Part shown: positions 37,333-44,370 of the stretch, in pieces
How the letters are laid out: each line of letters begins with the position of its first letter
How positions within the stretch are numbered: position 1 is the first letter of the stretch
NCBI GenBank assembly: GCA_947452235.1
Contig: CANGBK010000005.1
Location: 1-49,947, forward strand
DNA: 49,947 nucleotides
Reading direction: 5' to 3'
From: Micrococcales bacterium
GTDB taxonomy: Bacteria > Actinomycetota > Actinomycetes > Actinomycetales > Microbacteriaceae
The notes under the pieces: generated by a model
Told to the model about the DNA's origin: nothing
What the model saw: the letters and a program-made list of their open reading frames with translations, nothing else
Database searches by the model: none
Program-made: the position numbers and the translations under genes

Positions 37333-37587
37333 ATGGAACTGCCATGGCTAACAGAAGCTCGCTGCCGAACAGAAGATCCAGAACTGTTCTTTCCAGTGGG
37401 AAATACTGGCCCTGCAGTTGAACAGATCGAGCAAGCCAAGAGCATTTGCCGTGAATGTAAAGTAACCACAAACTGTCTTGAATATGCAATCAAAGAGAAC
37501 CAAGACAATGGTGTTTGGGGCGGTCTATCTGAAGATGAGCGTAAGTCGCTAAAGCGCAAGTATGCTCGTGCACGCCGCTCGGCTTAA
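37333..37587 (+). CDS. whiB1: WhiB-family transcriptional regulator, WhiB1-like
   Basis: 84 residues with four iron-sulfur cysteines C11, C39, C42 and C48 and the GVWGG turn (60-64) followed by a basic C-terminus. The pattern DPELFFPVGNTGPA and the length are those of mycobacterial WhiB1, an essential Fe-S protein that reacts with nitric oxide and binds sigma-A. The neighbouring convergent gene is a PdtaS-type kinase, as in mycobacteria (Rv3219/Rv3220c). AAGGA lies 10 bases before the ATG. Its stop overlaps pdtaS by 4 bases. Confidence 0.9.
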   Translation: MELPWLTEARCRTEDPELFFPVGNTGPAVEQIEQAKSICRECKVTTNCLEYAIKENQDNGVWGGLSEDERKSLKRKYARARRSA

Positions 37588-39065
37588 GCTAACGGAACCT
37601 CAACCGAAACAGTTGTTCCTGCAGTCTTATCTGCAATGAAATCAATCTTGCCTCTAAGTTCACCTTCAACAAGTGTCTTAACAATCTGAGTTCCAAGACC
37701 AGCCAAAACTCTATCTTCGGCTAGCCCCACCCCATCGTCAGCGACGCTGATCATAAGTTTTTTAGCTTTGCGCGAAGCTGTCACGGTTAGGTGACCGGTC
37801 TTGTTTGCAAGTCCATGCTCATAGGCATTGGTAACGATCTCAGTTAGAACAACAGCCAGCGGTGTTGCTATTTCACTAGGAAGTCTTCCAAACTTACCTA
37901 TACGCAGGTTAGTGACCCTAGCGTTATAAGCAGCCGCTAATTCAGCAACCATTGCGATGATTCGATCGAAAACCTCATCAAAGTTCACGTCCTGAGCTAA
38001 ACCTTCAGACAGTGAGTCATGAACAACAGCAATGGCTGCCACCCGTCTCTCCGCATCAGATAGGGCTTCAAGGGTTTCAGGTGATTTACTTCTACGCCCC
38101 TGGATGCGAAGCAAAGAAGCAACTGTCTGGAGATTGTTTTTCACTCTGTGGTGAATCTCACGAATGGTTGCATCTTTAGTGATCAGCTCTCGTTCTTGAC
38201 GTCTAAGTTCTGTCACATCACGGCAGAGCAAAATAGCTCCAGTGTGTTCATCACCGTCATAGATAGGTATGGCTCTAACTGATTGAACAGATCCAGCACC
38301 TTCTATATCTGCTCGCCAGGCAACCTTGCCTGAAACCACCATGGGTAGGTTCTCATCGATGTTGTGTTTACCTTTGTTGAGTGAATCTGTGATGTCAACC
38401 AAACGTCGACCTTCCATCTCACCTTCAACACCTAGTTTGTGAAAAGCAGAAATACCGTTAGGTGACGAAAACACAACAGCACCCTGAGCATCCAAATGCA
38501 AAAGCCCGTCGTTCACACGAGGTGCACCTCTTCTAGGTGCACTCTGCTCCGAAAACATTGGGTAGCTACCGTAGGTGACCATCTCGAGTAACTTATCGCC
38601 CAACCCAGCAAGATTTATTCTGGTCTTATTAGGAGCTGCTGCTTCAACCAGGTTTGTGTGTTTAGTAACAACGGCTATAGGTGAAGGTGTAATGTCTTTA
38701 CCGCTTTTGAAGTTCAATCTTCTAAAAACAGGAATAGCACTTAGTCTCGCGGGAACGCCTTGGTACTCATCTAGTTGACCGTATTCGACTATTTCACCTG
38801 TTGCGTATGCTTCAGAAACCAGGTTGGCCCAAGCCTTTTCAACTTGCTTACCTGTGATGTCCCTATAGAAAACTGTTGCAGCACTCGAAGGTCTAGCGTG
38901 ACCGGCAGCAATAAACCCGCCTTTGCCATCTGGAATCCAGAGAACAAGATCAGCGAAACTCAGATCTGCAATAACCTGCCAGTCGGCAACAAGAGCATGA
39001 AGCCATTCGATGTCAGGAGCATGATCTTGACCATGTTGCTTCATTAGATCTGAAAGTGTGGACAC
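37584..39065 (-). CDS. pdtaS: PdtaS-like sensor histidine kinase
   Basis: 493 residues. The N-terminal part (about 1-150) is the GAF-like sensor of this family, the middle (about 185-290) a PAS-like domain, and the C-terminus a HisKA_2/HATPase pair with H-box EIHHRVKNNLQTVASLLRIQ (305-306 HH). It is expected to phosphorylate an ANTAR-domain RNA-binding response regulator (PdtaR), which is not encoded here. Likely cytoplasmic, no transmembrane segment. It starts 1 base after the CpaE-like gene stop. Confidence 0.87.
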   Translation of the reverse strand: MSTLSDLMKQHGQDHAPDIEWLHALVADWQVIADLSFADLVLWIPDGKGGFIAAGHARPSSAATVFYRDITGKQVEKAWANLVSEAYATGEIVEYGQLDEYQGVPARLSAIPVFRRLNFKSGKDITPSPIAVVTKHTNLVEAAAPNKTRINLAGLGDKLLEMVTYGSYPMFSEQSAPRRGAPRVNDGLLHLDAQGAVVFSSPNGISAFHKLGVEGEMEGRRLVDITDSLNKGKHNIDENLPMVVSGKVAWRADIEGAGSVQSVRAIPIYDGDEHTGAILLCRDVTELRRQERELITKDATIREIHHRVKNNLQTVASLLRIQGRRSKSPETLEALSDAERRVAAIAVVHDSLSEGLAQDVNFDEVFDRIIAMVAELAAAYNARVTNLRIGKFGRLPSEIATPLAVVLTEIVTNAYEHGLANKTGHLTVTASRKAKKLMISVADDGVGLAEDRVLAGLGTQIVKTLVEGELRGKIDFIADKTAGTTVSVEVPLA

Positions 39066-39992
39066 CTAAGAAAGTTTAGCCACGCTCGGTGCGTTTCTCG
39101 AAGTCAGCATAACTATTTTGGCTAACTCATCGATAGCTTTCCTAGCTGGTGAAGAGCGTTTGAGTAGCGTCAGCGGTAAACCATTTCTAAGACTCTTCTC
39201 GAAATTCTCTGGTTCGTAAGGAACAAAGCAATCAATTCTTAGTCTGGCGAGACGTTCATAACTAGTAATCAAATCTGCTTTAGCATCTGGTCCTAGTGCA
39301 CTTGTTCTAAATTTGTTCACAACAACCAAAGGTTCCACGGTTGAACCAACCTCATGCAAGTAATCCAACGCTTCAAGAAAGCGCTTTGCGGCTACCGGAT
39401 CGCATCCCGAAACAACAATAAGCTTGCTTGCCTTGGCTAAAACATCTCTAAGCAGAAAGTCCCTATCCGCCTCCCCTATAGAAGGGTGAATCAGAGAGTT
39501 GCTAGACCTTGTTGCGACTGGCAAATCCAGGATCACATGATCCACAAAGCCTTTAATAGCTTCAAGTAGTTTCTCTAGACGCTCTGGGCTAACTTCACTC
39601 CAACGATTTGGATTAGCTAAACCAGGCAACAAAACAAGTTCCTGCCTGCCCAGAGAGATGGTTACTGTTAGCCTCTGAAACTCTTGGTAGCTGAGTCTTC
39701 CTTGTTCTGCTAATCGCAGCAAAGCAGATAACCCTGCTGGTGTGTCAACTAGCCCCAAATGCAGAGCCAAGGAAGGTGCCAAGGTGTTCAGGTCAGCCAG
39801 AAGAACCTTCTGCCCACTTAGTGCCAACTCAGTTGCCAGGTTGATTGCCAACGTACTCACTCCAGGAGATCCTAATCCCGACCAACAAGCAATCACGTTC
39901 AGTGGATAGATGGTCTTAGCTGGAGTAACAGAATGACTTTCGGTTACCACAGCTAAATGTGACGGTCTATTTCTGATCATCGTTGTGCTCAT
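39066..39992 (-). CDS. CpaE/MinD-like ATPase fold protein without Walker lysines
   Basis: 308 residues. The fold is MinD/ParA type: a phosphate loop at 39-47, then LADLN (Walker A' region) and later VNKF. The deviant Walker A motif KGGxGK(T/S) reads LGSPGVST, so both the signature lysine and the P-loop lysine are missing, which should impair ATP hydrolysis. Such actinobacterial proteins are annotated as CpaE-like or septum-site proteins. It is translationally linked to the SAF-domain gene (4-base overlap), without any Flp-pilus genes nearby. Confidence 0.75.
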   Translation of the reverse strand: MSTTMIRNRPSHLAVVTESHSVTPAKTIYPLNVIACWSGLGSPGVSTLAINLATELALSGQKVLLADLNTLAPSLALHLGLVDTPAGLSALLRLAEQGRLSYQEFQRLTVTISLGRQELVLLPGLANPNRWSEVSPERLEKLLEAIKGFVDHVILDLPVATRSSNSLIHPSIGEADRDFLLRDVLAKASKLIVVSGCDPVAAKRFLEALDYLHEVGSTVEPLVVVNKFRTSALGPDAKADLITSYERLARLRIDCFVPYEPENFEKSLRNGLPLTLLKRSSPARKAIDELAKIVMLTSRNAPSVAKLS

Positions 39993-40606
39993 CGCGCTAG
40001 CACCGCAATAACGACTTGCTTCTGAGCTATCGCATTCACAACTGATCGAACTTCTGCGGGGCTAACACAAAGCTCAATGGTTTGAACATTTTGGCTAAGT
40101 GCATCGGTTGCGGTTGCACTATTGAGAAGTTCGGATGCTGTGAGTATTTGAACCGGAATAGTGCCATTAGAAACACTTGAATCGGCGGCCCAAACATTCA
40201 AGAGATCGCCTTTATGGATTCCGCTGTTCAGGCTCATACCTAGATTTAGTTTCATGGCAACACAGCTGGATTGCACTTCAGGTACGACGGCTGAAACCGG
40301 GATGAGCTCCCCAGCTCTTACAGGTTTTGAAATAAACCATGAGGTCATCTTGCTATCGGCAGGAATGTATTTATGTTTTTGATCACCTAGTGAAACCGAA
40401 ACAGTTGTTGAAATAGCTTCACTAAGTTGGGTGAAACTGGTTAGGTCACTTGTTGCAATAAGGTACTGATCCCCTGGGTTCTGATTGCCCACCCCGCTAA
40501 CCCAAACGGCAGCTATCAGAAGACTGAATATGGAAAATAGCAATAATCGGTTTCTTCTAGAACCAATCCTGCTTGCAAGCTTGACCTTGCGGTTACGCTT
40601 TCTCAT
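39989..40606 (-). CDS. SAF-domain protein (CpaB/RcpC-like)
   Basis: About 205 residues from the chosen ATG. A very basic N-terminus precedes one membrane helix (about 19-36), and the rest is extracytoplasmic with a SAF domain, seen in TDLTSFTQLSEAI and the WFISKPVRAGELIPVSAV block, and an RcpC-like second half. The related CpaB protein helps build the Flp pilus outer assembly. Earlier in-frame starts (GTG at 40633, ATG at 40618 and 40612) are open and none has a convincing ribosome-binding site, so the start is uncertain. It overlaps the upstream gene and the CpaE-like gene. Confidence 0.65.
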   Translation of the reverse strand: MRKRNRKVKLASRIGSRRNRLLLFSIFSLLIAAVWVSGVGNQNPGDQYLIATSDLTSFTQLSEAISTTVSVSLGDQKHKYIPADSKMTSWFISKPVRAGELIPVSAVVPEVQSSCVAMKLNLGMSLNSGIHKGDLLNVWAADSSVSNGTIPVQILTASELLNSATATDALSQNVQTIELCVSPAEVRSVVNAIAQKQVVIAVLAR

Positions 40607-41114
40607 CAACATTGCCATCAAGCAATGTTCCACTAATTCTCTTCAGTTCGCTGAGTTTCTCCACAGCAATACTTTTTGTTGAGTAAACAAATACTTGCTG
40701 GTTACCTATCTTCAGCCAACCTTGGTCTACTCCAGAAAGTTCCCCATTTATTTCTGGACTAGGCCAATGAAACTTGAGTTTCAATTGAACTCCAATAAGT
40801 TTTTCTTCGAGCAGCTCTTCAAGAGTTGACCGAGTCCAACTAAGTTCAGCTTTTATTTCCTCAAGAGTTATGGCGTGAATGCTTCGACCTGGTATCAACA
40901 ACCAGGTCATGTCCTGGGTGAAGCCAGCAACGAAATCCTTTCCAGCGATTGGGGCTCTAAGCACCACCGAACTTTGTTCCTGATTTAGGTACGAGACTCG
41001 GATCAGTTTTGCTTTTGGTTTCGCAGAAACCTGTTTAGTTAGGGACTGGAAATATCCTTGGGCTTCAAGGTCTTCTATGGTAGCTTCAATGTTCATTTGG
41101 ATAGTTTCGGCCAT
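40593..41114 (-). CDS. Protein of unknown function
   Basis: 173 residues, soluble. I cannot assign a family. The N-terminal 30 residues contain a helix, the middle is mixed beta, and a helical stretch with Glu-rich sequence (IKAELSWTRSTLEELLEEK, about 87-105) follows. No signal peptide. It overlaps the SAF-domain gene by about 14 bases and is divergent from the Rv3235-family gene. An in-frame ATG at 41096 is an alternative start. Because it is coupled to the SAF and CpaE-like genes it probably works with them. Confidence 0.6.
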   Translation of the reverse strand: MAETIQMNIEATIEDLEAQGYFQSLTKQVSAKPKAKLIRVSYLNQEQSSVVLRAPIAGKDFVAGFTQDMTWLLIPGRSIHAITLEEIKAELSWTRSTLEELLEEKLIGVQLKLKFHWPSPEINGELSGVDQGWLKIGNQQVFVYSTKSIAVEKLSELKRISGTLLDGNVDEKA

Positions 41115-41199
41115 TGGGCAAGGATTGATAACAATCTGTCCACAGGTAGTGTTCCCAGTTATGCGAATGGTCTTTTATTGTGTATCTTGTGTTTTAGTC

Positions 41200-41658
41200 A
41201 TGTCGGGGGGAAGTTATTTAGCAATGGCAACGCAATCAAAAACTGGGGCAAAACGTAAAGTTTCAAGCCCAATAGATTCAGATGAATACTTCGGTCTCCA
41301 ATTCCCTTCGAGTGCTTCCCTGGGAGACCCCAAGCCTGTTCTAGCCTTCTTAGCACAAGCTGTAATTGAGACCATCGCTGGCATTAGAGACATAGAACAT
41401 AGCGCTAGATGGCTCACTGACGGTGTTTATCAGCAACTAAGACTCAAGGCCACAGAAGCATCTAGAGCCAGGGCACAGAGCCAAGCCAAGATCCTTAGGC
41501 CCAACCTTGCCATAGGGAAAATAACCACGTTTAGCCCAAGAGATGGCGTGATTGAGGGCGTTGTTGTGGTGCACAACCAAGGCAGAGCTAGAGCCGTTGC
41601 CATCCGCTTAGAAGGCTATAACGGCCGCTGGAGGGCTAAAACCCTAGCGGTGCTATAA
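41200..41658 (+). CDS. Rv3235-family protein
   Basis: About 152 residues. The conserved core starts at DEYFGLQFPSSASLGDPKPV, then LAQAVIETIAGIRDIEHSARWLTDGVY, and ends in RDGVIEGVVVVHNQGRARAVAIRLEGYNGRWRAKTLAVL, which agrees well with the small actinobacterial family found upstream of secA. The function is unknown. An in-frame ATG at 41224 is equally plausible; no start here has a clear ribosome-binding site. It converges on secA. Confidence 0.75.
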   Translation: MSGGSYLAMATQSKTGAKRKVSSPIDSDEYFGLQFPSSASLGDPKPVLAFLAQAVIETIAGIRDIEHSARWLTDGVYQQLRLKATEASRARAQSQAKILRPNLAIGKITTFSPRDGVIEGVVVVHNQGRARAVAIRLEGYNGRWRAKTLAVL

Positions 41659-41663
41659 GCCTT

Positions 41664-44300
41664 TTACTTCTTGAAGAAAGCGCTACCTGGTCCCTCATCA
41701 GCCTTAGGCTTCTGGATTCCAGGACCTTTGATCTCGGTATCTCCAGATTCGCTTGGAGCTGAGAAGGTTAGGTTGCTTGGAGCAACAGCCTGAGGTTGAG
41801 ATTCAACTTGAACATCCAGGTTGAATAGGAAACCAATGGATTCTTCCTTGATTGCACCCATCATCTGGTTGAACATGTTGTATCCCTCACGCTGGTATTC
41901 AACCAGAGGGTCACGTTGAGCCATTGCACGAAGACCGATACCTTCTTTCAGGTAATCCATCTCATACAAGTGGTCTCTCCACTTTCTATCTAGAACAGAT
42001 AGAACAACACGACGTTCAAGTTCGTGCATAGCTTCTTCACCTACAGAGTTAGCGCGGTTGGCATATGCAATACGTGCATCAGAGATGATTTCCTTAGTCA
42101 ACCAAGCTCTAGTCAACTTAGATCTTGAACCAGCCTCAGCGAGTACTTCTTCAATAGAAATGCCGATTGGGTAGATAGTCTTTAGGTCATTCCAAAGAGT
42201 TTGAAGATCCCAGTCGCTACCGGCGTTATCGTGAATGTTTGATTCAACAATTGCGGTAACCACATCAACAAGGAAAGCATCAACACGACCGGTTAGATCA
42301 TCACCGGCAAGGATGTGACGGCGGTCCGTGTAGATGGCTTCACGTTGACGGTTTAGAACATCGTCATACTTCAAAACATTCTTACGAATTTCAGCGTTAC
42401 GAGCTTCAACCTGACCTTGAGCGGAAGCAATAGCCTTACTCACAACTCCAGATTCGATAGCCATATCATCAGGAACATTAGATCTGTTCATCAGAGCTGC
42501 AGCAGCACCTGAGTTGAACAATCTCATTAGGTCATCAGTTAGTGATAGGTAGAAACGAGATTCACCAGCATCACCTTGACGACCTGAACGACCACGTAGC
42601 TGGTTGTCGATACGACGAGATTCGTGACGCTCAGTTCCTAGAACATACAAACCACCAACAGCTACAACCTTCTCGGCTTCTAGAGAAACTTGCTCCTTGA
42701 TTTCTGCATAAGTCTTAGCCCAGGCAGCCTCATACTCTTCAGGCTTTTCAACAGAGTCATAGCCCTTCTTAGCTAGAGCTTCATAAGCCAGGTGCTCAGC
42801 GTTACCACCGAGCATGATATCTGTTCCACGGCCAGCCATGTTGGTAGCTACTGTAACCGCACCCAAACGACCTGCCTGCGCAACAATAGAAGCTTCACGA
42901 GCATGGTTCTTAGCGTTTAGAACCTCGTGTCTAACTCCACGCTTGGCTAAAAGCTTAGAAAGGTACTCGCTCTTTTCAACGCTGGTAGTTCCAACCAAGA
43001 TAGGCTGACCGGTTTCGTGACGCTTAGCAATGTCTTCAACAACCATCGCGAATTTCACTGCCTCGTTCTTGTAAATAAGATCTGGCTGATCGATACGAAT
43101 CATTGGCTTGTTAGTTGGAATAGGAACAACACCGAGCTTGTAGGTGCTCATGAATTCTGCAGCTTCAGTTGTTGCTGTACCAGTCATACCGGAAAGCTTT
43201 TTATACATTCTGAAGTAGTTCTGCAAAGTAACTGTTGCCAAAGTCTGGTTCTCAGCTTTAACAGCAACACCTTCTTTAGCTTCAATAGCCTGGTGAATAC
43301 CCTCGTTGTAACGACGGCCATCAAGAATACGACCGGTGTGCTCATCAACGATAAGAACTTCACCGTTCATAACCACATAGTCTTTGTCCTTCTTGAACAG
43401 GGCCTTAGCTCTGATTGAGTTGTTCAAGAATGAAATCAGCGGAGTGTTAGCTGACTCGTAAAGGTTAGAAATACCTAGGTAATCTTCAACCTTAGAAATA
43501 CCTGGCTCCAAAATACCTACGGTGCGCTTCTTCTCGTCAATTTCATAGTCAATTACTGGCTGAAGTTTTTCTGCGATCTTTGCAAACTCGTTAAACCAAC
43601 GGTTAGCTTCACCAGATGAAGGTCCAGAAATAATCAAAGGTGTTCTAGCCTCATCGATCAAGATGGAGTCTACCTCGTCAACGATTGCAAAGAAGTGCTC
43701 GCGCTGAACAAGTTCAGCTGAAGATTGAGCCATGTTGTCTCTTAGATAATCAAAACCAAACTCGTTGTTAGTTCCATAAGTAATGTCACACAGATACTGC
43801 TCACGTCTAACATCTGGGCTCTGGCCAGAAATTATGATTCCTGTTGACATACCTAGGGCACGGTAAACACGGCCCATCAATTCACCTTGGTAACTTGCAA
43901 GATAATCGTTGGTTGTAATCACGTGAACACCGCGACCGGCGATAGCGTTCAAGTAAGCAGGCAGGGTTGCAACCAGAGTCTTACCTTCACCAGTACGCAT
44001 TTCAGCAATGTTGGCAAAGTGCAGAGCTGCACCACCCATCAACTGAACATCGTAAGGTCTTTGACCTAGTGTGCGCTTAGCCGCTTCACGAACAGCAGCG
44101 AAGGCTTCAGGAAGCAAATCATCCAGAGTCTCACCGGCAACGTAACGCTCGCGGAGCAAAGCAGTCTCGTGAAGTAAATCTTCGTCGCTAAGAGCAGAGA
44201 AGTCCTGTTCTAGGCCGTTAACAGCAGTAACAACTGAACGAAGCTTGGCAAGAATCTTGCCTTCACCGGCACGAAGTAAACGGTCGATAATTGACGCCAA
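41664..44300 (-). CDS. secA: Protein translocase motor subunit SecA
   Basis: 878 residues. The DEAD-like ATPase motor: Walker A GEGKT (104-108) in [27 protein letters not shown] as Walker B, and the helicase motif [17 protein letters not shown] in the second half. It drives protein export through SecYEG. The start is set at TTG 44300 because GGAG lies 6 bases upstream and the protein then begins [15 protein letters not shown], as in other SecA proteins; the longer reading to 44312 is rejected. The C-terminus lacks the zinc-binding SEC-C domain, as is usual for actinobacterial SecA1. Confidence 0.95.
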
Positions 44301-44370
44301 AGTAAGCTCCAAACGCTATGTGGTCATTCCCTTCCATCTTAGACTGCAAAGGCAAGACCAAACTTGAGCC

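Follow-up and report, generated by a model that had tools for sequence, protein, structure and literature searches.

The CpaB-CpaE pair is typical of Tad systems. In Caulobacter, CpaE dimers lie around CpaF, and CpaB forms a cage above the membrane (PMC13170226). Micrococcus luteus has two tad loci that are both essential for transformation (PMC12849477), and another paper reports TadZ as missing from its tad clusters (PMC4322843). The type of locus analyzed here is already known from this species. A competence-mutant screen found its densest cluster of mutations at an HTH-17 gene and the divergent operon beside it, which contains genes for a SAF/CpaB-like protein, a TadZ/CpaE-like protein, and a PAS kinase (PMC8467076). 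Deletion of the SAF gene lowered transformation 10^4-fold, and the G27D mutation lowered it more than 10^5-fold (PMC8467076). The deletion raised comEA/EC promoter activity in LB, and mutants of the neighboring HTH gene also changed the activity of this promoter (PMC8467076). The authors reported comparable arrangements in several genera and stated that a direct role of the operon in pili was still to be verified (PMC8467076). The Figure 5 legend of the paper colors Mlut_14670, a neighbor of the cluster (cluster 13). Literature searches by M. luteus locus tags returned PMC8467076 only.

The window is the whole stretch of DNA that was analyzed (49,947 nucleotides), contig C5 of genome G000 (1.2 Mb, 92.9% complete). 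The first-pass annotation had described three overlapping genes on the minus strand at 39066-41114, and their coordinates were confirmed (Table 1). The first gene, U173, overlaps the SAF gene by 14 bases, and the SAF gene overlaps the CpaE-like gene by 4. An alternative GTG start of the SAF gene at 40633 would give a protein of 214 amino acids and an overlap with U173 of 41 bases. pdtaS begins at the base right after the CpaE-like gene (39065), so the genes form a four-gene run. The PdtaS domains score above the Pfam cut-offs (GAF_PdtaS, 120.8 bits; HisKA_2, 81.5 bits; HATPase, 45.5 bits).

Table 1. Features of the locus, with coordinates in the window, strand, and remarks
U173 (173-aa protein)	40593..41114	minus	First gene of the run; FEDLEAQ-type N-terminal segment, then two related repeats
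SAF/CpaB-like protein, 205 aa	39989..40606	minus	One N-terminal hydrophobic segment (by eye), followed by a SAF-type region
CpaE/MinD-like protein, 308 aa	39066..39992	minus	Lacks the long N-terminal extension of most larger-genome relatives
Altered Walker A LGSPGVST, residues 40-47 of the 308-aa protein	39852..39875	minus	
Asn69, replacing the second Asp of DxD in the CpaE-like protein	39786..39788	minus	
pdtaS sensor histidine kinase (GAF_PdtaS, PAS, HisKA_2, HATPase)	37584..39065	minus	Directly downstream, 0-base gap
whiB-type gene	37333..37587	plus	Convergent flank; position conserved
DUF6459 protein	41224..41658	plus	Divergent flank; ORF opens at 41077, probable start ATG 41224 (by inspection)
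secA	41664..44312	minus	Conserved flank

The SAF, CpaE-like, and PAS/PdtaS kinase genes lie in a single run in the window. M. luteus cluster 13 (Mlut_14660, HTH; Mlut_14650/40/30, SAF, CpaE-like, and PAS kinase) has the same gene types, order, and operon by the annotation in PMC8467076. It differs in having the HTH gene, which the window's genus no longer has at this locus. The passages of PMC8467076 on cluster 13 do not describe an altered Walker motif or a U173-like protein. Gene order and annotation suggest that the window genes are orthologous to the Micrococcus genes.

The stretch of roughly 110 bases (41115-41223) that separates U173 from the probable start of DUF6459 is likely a two-way promoter region. 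Scanning 41050-41300 for consensus sites gave no promoter-like site and no sigma-70 match. One terminator-like site turned up, within U173 (0.1 expected). At the other end of the set, the CpaE-like stop codon usually abuts the pdtaS GTG in the genus. The CpaE-like proteins end in AKL(G/S) at 27 of 41 genus loci (the window and L064-L103) and at 0 of 20 family loci. This ending may be a protein signal or a constraint of translation coupling.

An initial scan of relatives gave distant ParA-type matches only. The CpaE-like query matched 131 of 150 family genomes at E<=0.001, and the weak family matches are likely other MinD/ParA-type proteins. Matches were found in 65 of 67 genus genomes, some of them weak (about 1e-4 to 1e-7), and in all 22 genus genomes with at least 90% completeness and at most 5% contamination. 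The window was compared with the surroundings of 60 good matches, of which 40 came from the genus and the other 20 from the family. The order secA+, DUF6459-, U173+, SAF+, CpaE-like+, pdtaS+, whiB- is common to the window and these Microbacteriaceae relatives. In some family members, pdtaS or secA is further away or the stretch ends short of it. The earlier proposal that the three genes act together is upheld. Iterated profiles found SAF at 61 and U173 at 54 of 61 loci, all picked for having the CpaE-like gene. pdtaS lies within 50 bases downstream of the CpaE-like gene at 51 of the 61. A divergent HTH gene is present between U173 and SAF at 14/20 family loci and 0/41 genus loci.

The class was searched with a profile of 56 CpaE-like domains on 246 genomes. 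All 246 gave some match because MinD/ParA proteins are everywhere. The CpaE-like family was present in 122 genomes at E<=1.2e-37, and 12 of the 122 are from the window's own family. This threshold marks a gap. The next matches (2.4e-29 and 2.8e-28) are second fragments in two positive genomes, with weak ones below. A U173 profile of 40 members matched 79 of the 246 genomes. It was found only with the CpaE-like family (79/122 positive versus 0/124 other genomes). As read from coordinates, the U173 match lies apart from the CpaE-like gene in eight f32 family genomes and on a different contig in several fragmented genomes.

We examined 16 class loci in detail (L161 and L163-L177). They contained SAF (16), U173 (15), HTH (15), DUF6459 (15), and secA (14). 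Most of the window gene order is thus also present in other families, and the counts give U173-HTH-SAF-CpaE beside secA as the core of the module. pdtaS adjoining the CpaE-like gene was not found in the 16 loci sampled. Microbacteriaceae show the direct pdtaS link, and so does the published M. luteus operon as annotated. The use of the names Microbacteriaceae and class follows the first-pass annotation and the genes present. The first-pass annotation had called the cluster an orphan. With the family in half of the class sample, that label has to be dropped. Many actinobacteria carry this cluster, and the window has a reduced form of it.

The 308-amino-acid protein has a MinD-like fold by profile (MinD 1hyq, E 2.4e-18). 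It falls under every Pfam and NCBIfam cut-off, including those of the MinD models TIGR01968 (24.6 versus 212.9 bits) and TIGR01969 (39.5 versus 201.75 bits). Its best match is TIGR03815 Ssd (40.3 versus 154.45 bits). Ssd (Rv3660c type) is likewise an actinobacterial CpaE homologue, and its neighborhood presumably differs from that of the window gene. A paper on Rv3660c (PMC3095998) gave no useful passage on Walker, CpaE, or Flp. Only about 30 residues precede the MinD domain in the window protein, which leaves it without the receiver-like N-terminus of Tad CpaE/TadZ. The N-terminal extension of four relatives matched no Pfam receiver model.

The absence of both Walker lysines from LGSPGVST, noted in the first pass, stands. 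Leu stands in for the signature lysine and Val for the P-loop lysine, and Asn replaces the second Asp of DxD (DxN). The family norm of Walker A is (A/T/H)G(A/S)PGR(T/S). We surveyed the motif in 118 genomes (41 genus, 36 family, and 41 class) after dropping 11 duplicate loci. The Walker B Asp is present at every locus surveyed, as in MinD and ParA. Unlike in those proteins, the signature lysine is missing in 118/118 genomes. The P-loop place has Arg in 80, Lys in 35, Val in 2, and Ala in 1. Lys is common there in the window's genus. Among the 41 genus loci, Val and DxN each occur only in the window. The CpaE-like domain of the sister L064 is 74% identical to that of the window and has Arg at the P-loop. 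A somewhat different Walker A, one residue shorter and nearer the classical form (QGSGKST or AGSGKT(N/S)), was observed at L087, L090, L091, L115, and L117.

A recent loss of the P-loop lysine was considered and rejected, since Arg is present in 41/41 class genomes outside the genus and family lists. On these residues, Arg is most likely the old state of this place. A recent reduction also does not fit an altered Walker A that is the family norm or a cluster conserved across the class. Judged from the motif, a cycle of the MinD or ParA kind is improbable for the CpaE-like family.

Between the window and L064, dN is 0.22 for the CpaE-like gene, 0.27 for SAF, 0.52 for U173, and 0.037 for SecA. 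dS is saturated or high (1.85 for U173), with dN well below it. The cluster genes are under constraint yet fast-evolving. U173 is just 45% identical to its counterpart in the sister species versus 94% for SecA. This low identity, together with the Val and DxN unique to the window, could be taken for a decaying remnant that is functionless in the window species. We find decay very improbable. All reading frames are intact, and the CpaE/SecA dN ratio of about 6 in the window pair is also about 6 in the congeneric pair L093/L097. comEA-comEC is still present in the genome. Low dN relative to dS and a gene order kept across the class argue against both chance and decay.

The CpaB and CpaE resemblance noticed in the first pass is supported, on the CpaB side through relatives of the window protein. 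The window SAF protein itself matched no Pfam model. Of 49 aligned SAF-family members, 42 matched PF08666 SAF and 33 matched TIGR03177 CpaB (E<=0.1).

U173 had been left unassigned, and profile searches of Pfam, NCBIfam, and PDB gave no match. The U173 profile found nothing significant in PDB (best E, 0.053), and 40 members gave chance-level matches only in Pfam. The N- and C-terminal halves match each other (hhalign, 28 aligned members; probability 96%, E 2.3e-9). U173 contains two related repeats with the pattern 'v.l..G....G.l..vG.D...l.......vPl..i..v'. The repeats may be small beta-barrels (Sm/SH3-like). A single-sequence fold of U173 was discarded (pLDDT 33.5).

The window pair resembles the Tad/Flp CpaB-CpaE pair (RcpC-TadZ) in that a SAF and a MinD-like protein are encoded by adjacent, overlapping genes. 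It differs in belonging to a separate clade, in having no CpaF beside it, and in lacking KGGxGK. We fetched 21 paralogue loci with their surroundings (20 weaker CpaE matches and one in G261). They are tad linked, with CpaF at 20/21 and tad-type CpaB at 20/21. Walker A has both lysines (KGGxGK) in 20/21. In a tree of 107 sequences, a single branch splits tad-linked from secA-linked proteins (SH-aLRT 100, quick method). The two are coexisting families, and 17 of the 21 paralogue genomes have the secA-linked family as well, as members of the set of 122.

These 17 genomes keep the cluster despite a tad-type CpaE set of their own, which counts against a pilus role. A non-pilus system for polar or membrane positioning, perhaps for secA-linked export or division, would suit this retention alongside an existing CpaB and CpaE. 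It would also suit the conserved place beside secA and the MinD-like fold. We consider it improbable. The CpaB-CpaE pair is a typical Tad feature, both generally and in the tad-linked loci here, and the family is missing from about half of the class genomes sampled. The effect on transformation published for the SAF gene of M. luteus also argues against it.

No T2SSE or T2SSF match was found on the window's contig, which agrees with the earlier remark that no pilus genes are nearby. In G000, such matches are confined to contig C1, with one for T2SSE (1.8e-37) and two for T2SSF. The stretch G000:C1:8170-11807 contains a CpaF-like gene, two platform-protein genes (one scoring under the Pfam cut-off), and short pseudopilin-like ORFs (by eye). 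It gave no match to the CpaE family, and no ORF resembling CpaB was noticed in it. Flp pilus genes thus exist elsewhere in the genome as a small tad locus, and CpaB and CpaE were not seen among them. ComEA and ComEC (9.2e-52) are encoded side by side on contig C49. ComEA is over the cut-off of PF12836 and under that of TIGR01259 (98 versus 152 bits).

ComEC was found in 236/246 and T2SSF in 237/246 class genomes. Both are near-universal, so their co-occurrence with the cluster hardly discriminates. T2SSF is missing in 1/122 cluster-positive versus 8/124 other genomes (Fisher p 0.036, uncorrected for kinship). Three congeners with the cluster (G161, G163, and G207) have no T2SSF match and have a T2SSE match in each.

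Other pilus-like loci were observed in congeners. L188, L189, L191, and L193 contain a second small tad-like locus beside topA, with an ATPase, a platform protein, and two short pseudopilin-like ORFs. It was not detected in the window's own incomplete genome. In the 99% complete congener genome of L192, two in-frame TGA codons occur in the CpaF-type ATPase gene of the first tad-like locus (G194:C3:153054-153974), and the CpaE-like gene is intact. L160 (G092:C1:1066000-1082000) is a type IV pilus-like locus with two ATPases, a platform protein, and prepilin-like ORFs (by eye).

We lean, with modest confidence, toward the window genes being accessory parts of a Tad/Flp-type DNA-uptake pilus that act in trans. 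The motor, platform, and pseudopilin genes would lie elsewhere in the genome, and the window subunits would join their products in trans. Outside the membrane, the membrane-anchored SAF protein would take the CpaB (alignment/cage) role. On the inner face, the CpaE (motor-ring/positioning) role would fall to the CpaE-like protein. Its MinD fold would probably have given up switch-like ATP hydrolysis and become a pseudo-ATPase scaffold. U173 would be a third, new soluble partner, and the co-transcribed PdtaS kinase would couple the set to a signal. We infer the physical assembly with the pilus, the loss of hydrolysis, and the part of U173, which is a candidate new component.

The M. luteus phenotype can also be read another way, since a regulator also fits the rise of the comEA/EC promoter after SAF deletion in LB. 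In a signaling module, SAF would be an envelope sensor, the CpaE-like protein an adaptor, and PdtaS the output. It would control com expression and build no pilus. The close pdtaS gene at 51/61 loci and the promoter effects of the SAF deletion and HTH-gene mutants (PMC8467076) are in keeping with it. We think it unlikely. The SAF deletion removes most transformation despite the com promoter being raised (in LB), a pattern that suggests the loss of a component and not a lack of expression. All 41 genus loci lack the HTH regulator, and none of the 16 sampled class loci showed pdtaS beside the CpaE-like gene.

The earlier interpretation is partly supported by these results. The non-pilus role that it proposed is the weaker reading, and an unlikely one. 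The genome has a small tad locus and comEA-comEC, and the equivalent M. luteus operon is required for transformation.

A more specific form of the pilus reading can be put forward tentatively. The cluster might be a dedicated competence paralogue of Tad CpaB-CpaE in actinobacteria, in which an ATP-independent MinD-type scaffold (P-loop Arg, in places Lys or Val) is regularly accompanied by U173 as a third partner. These proteins would assemble into a ring in the membrane, and the ring would recruit the Tad motor, encoded elsewhere, for DNA uptake. The literature searched did not mention the altered Walker motif across the class, the split from tad-linked CpaE, or the link to U173.

Rhodoluna lacicola and Aurantimicrobium photophilum are presumably members of the window's family. 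Both are freshwater Actinobacteria that are naturally transformable and gene-editable (PMC11577799), so the idea is directly testable. DNA import by Gram-positive actinobacteria is poorly understood. As far as seen, CpaB and CpaE are absent both from the published M. luteus tad loci and from that of the window genome, and the cluster would supply the missing parts. It adds an uncharacterized protein family that was found only with it in our sample, and it provides a naturally occurring member of the MinD family that lacks the catalytic lysines.
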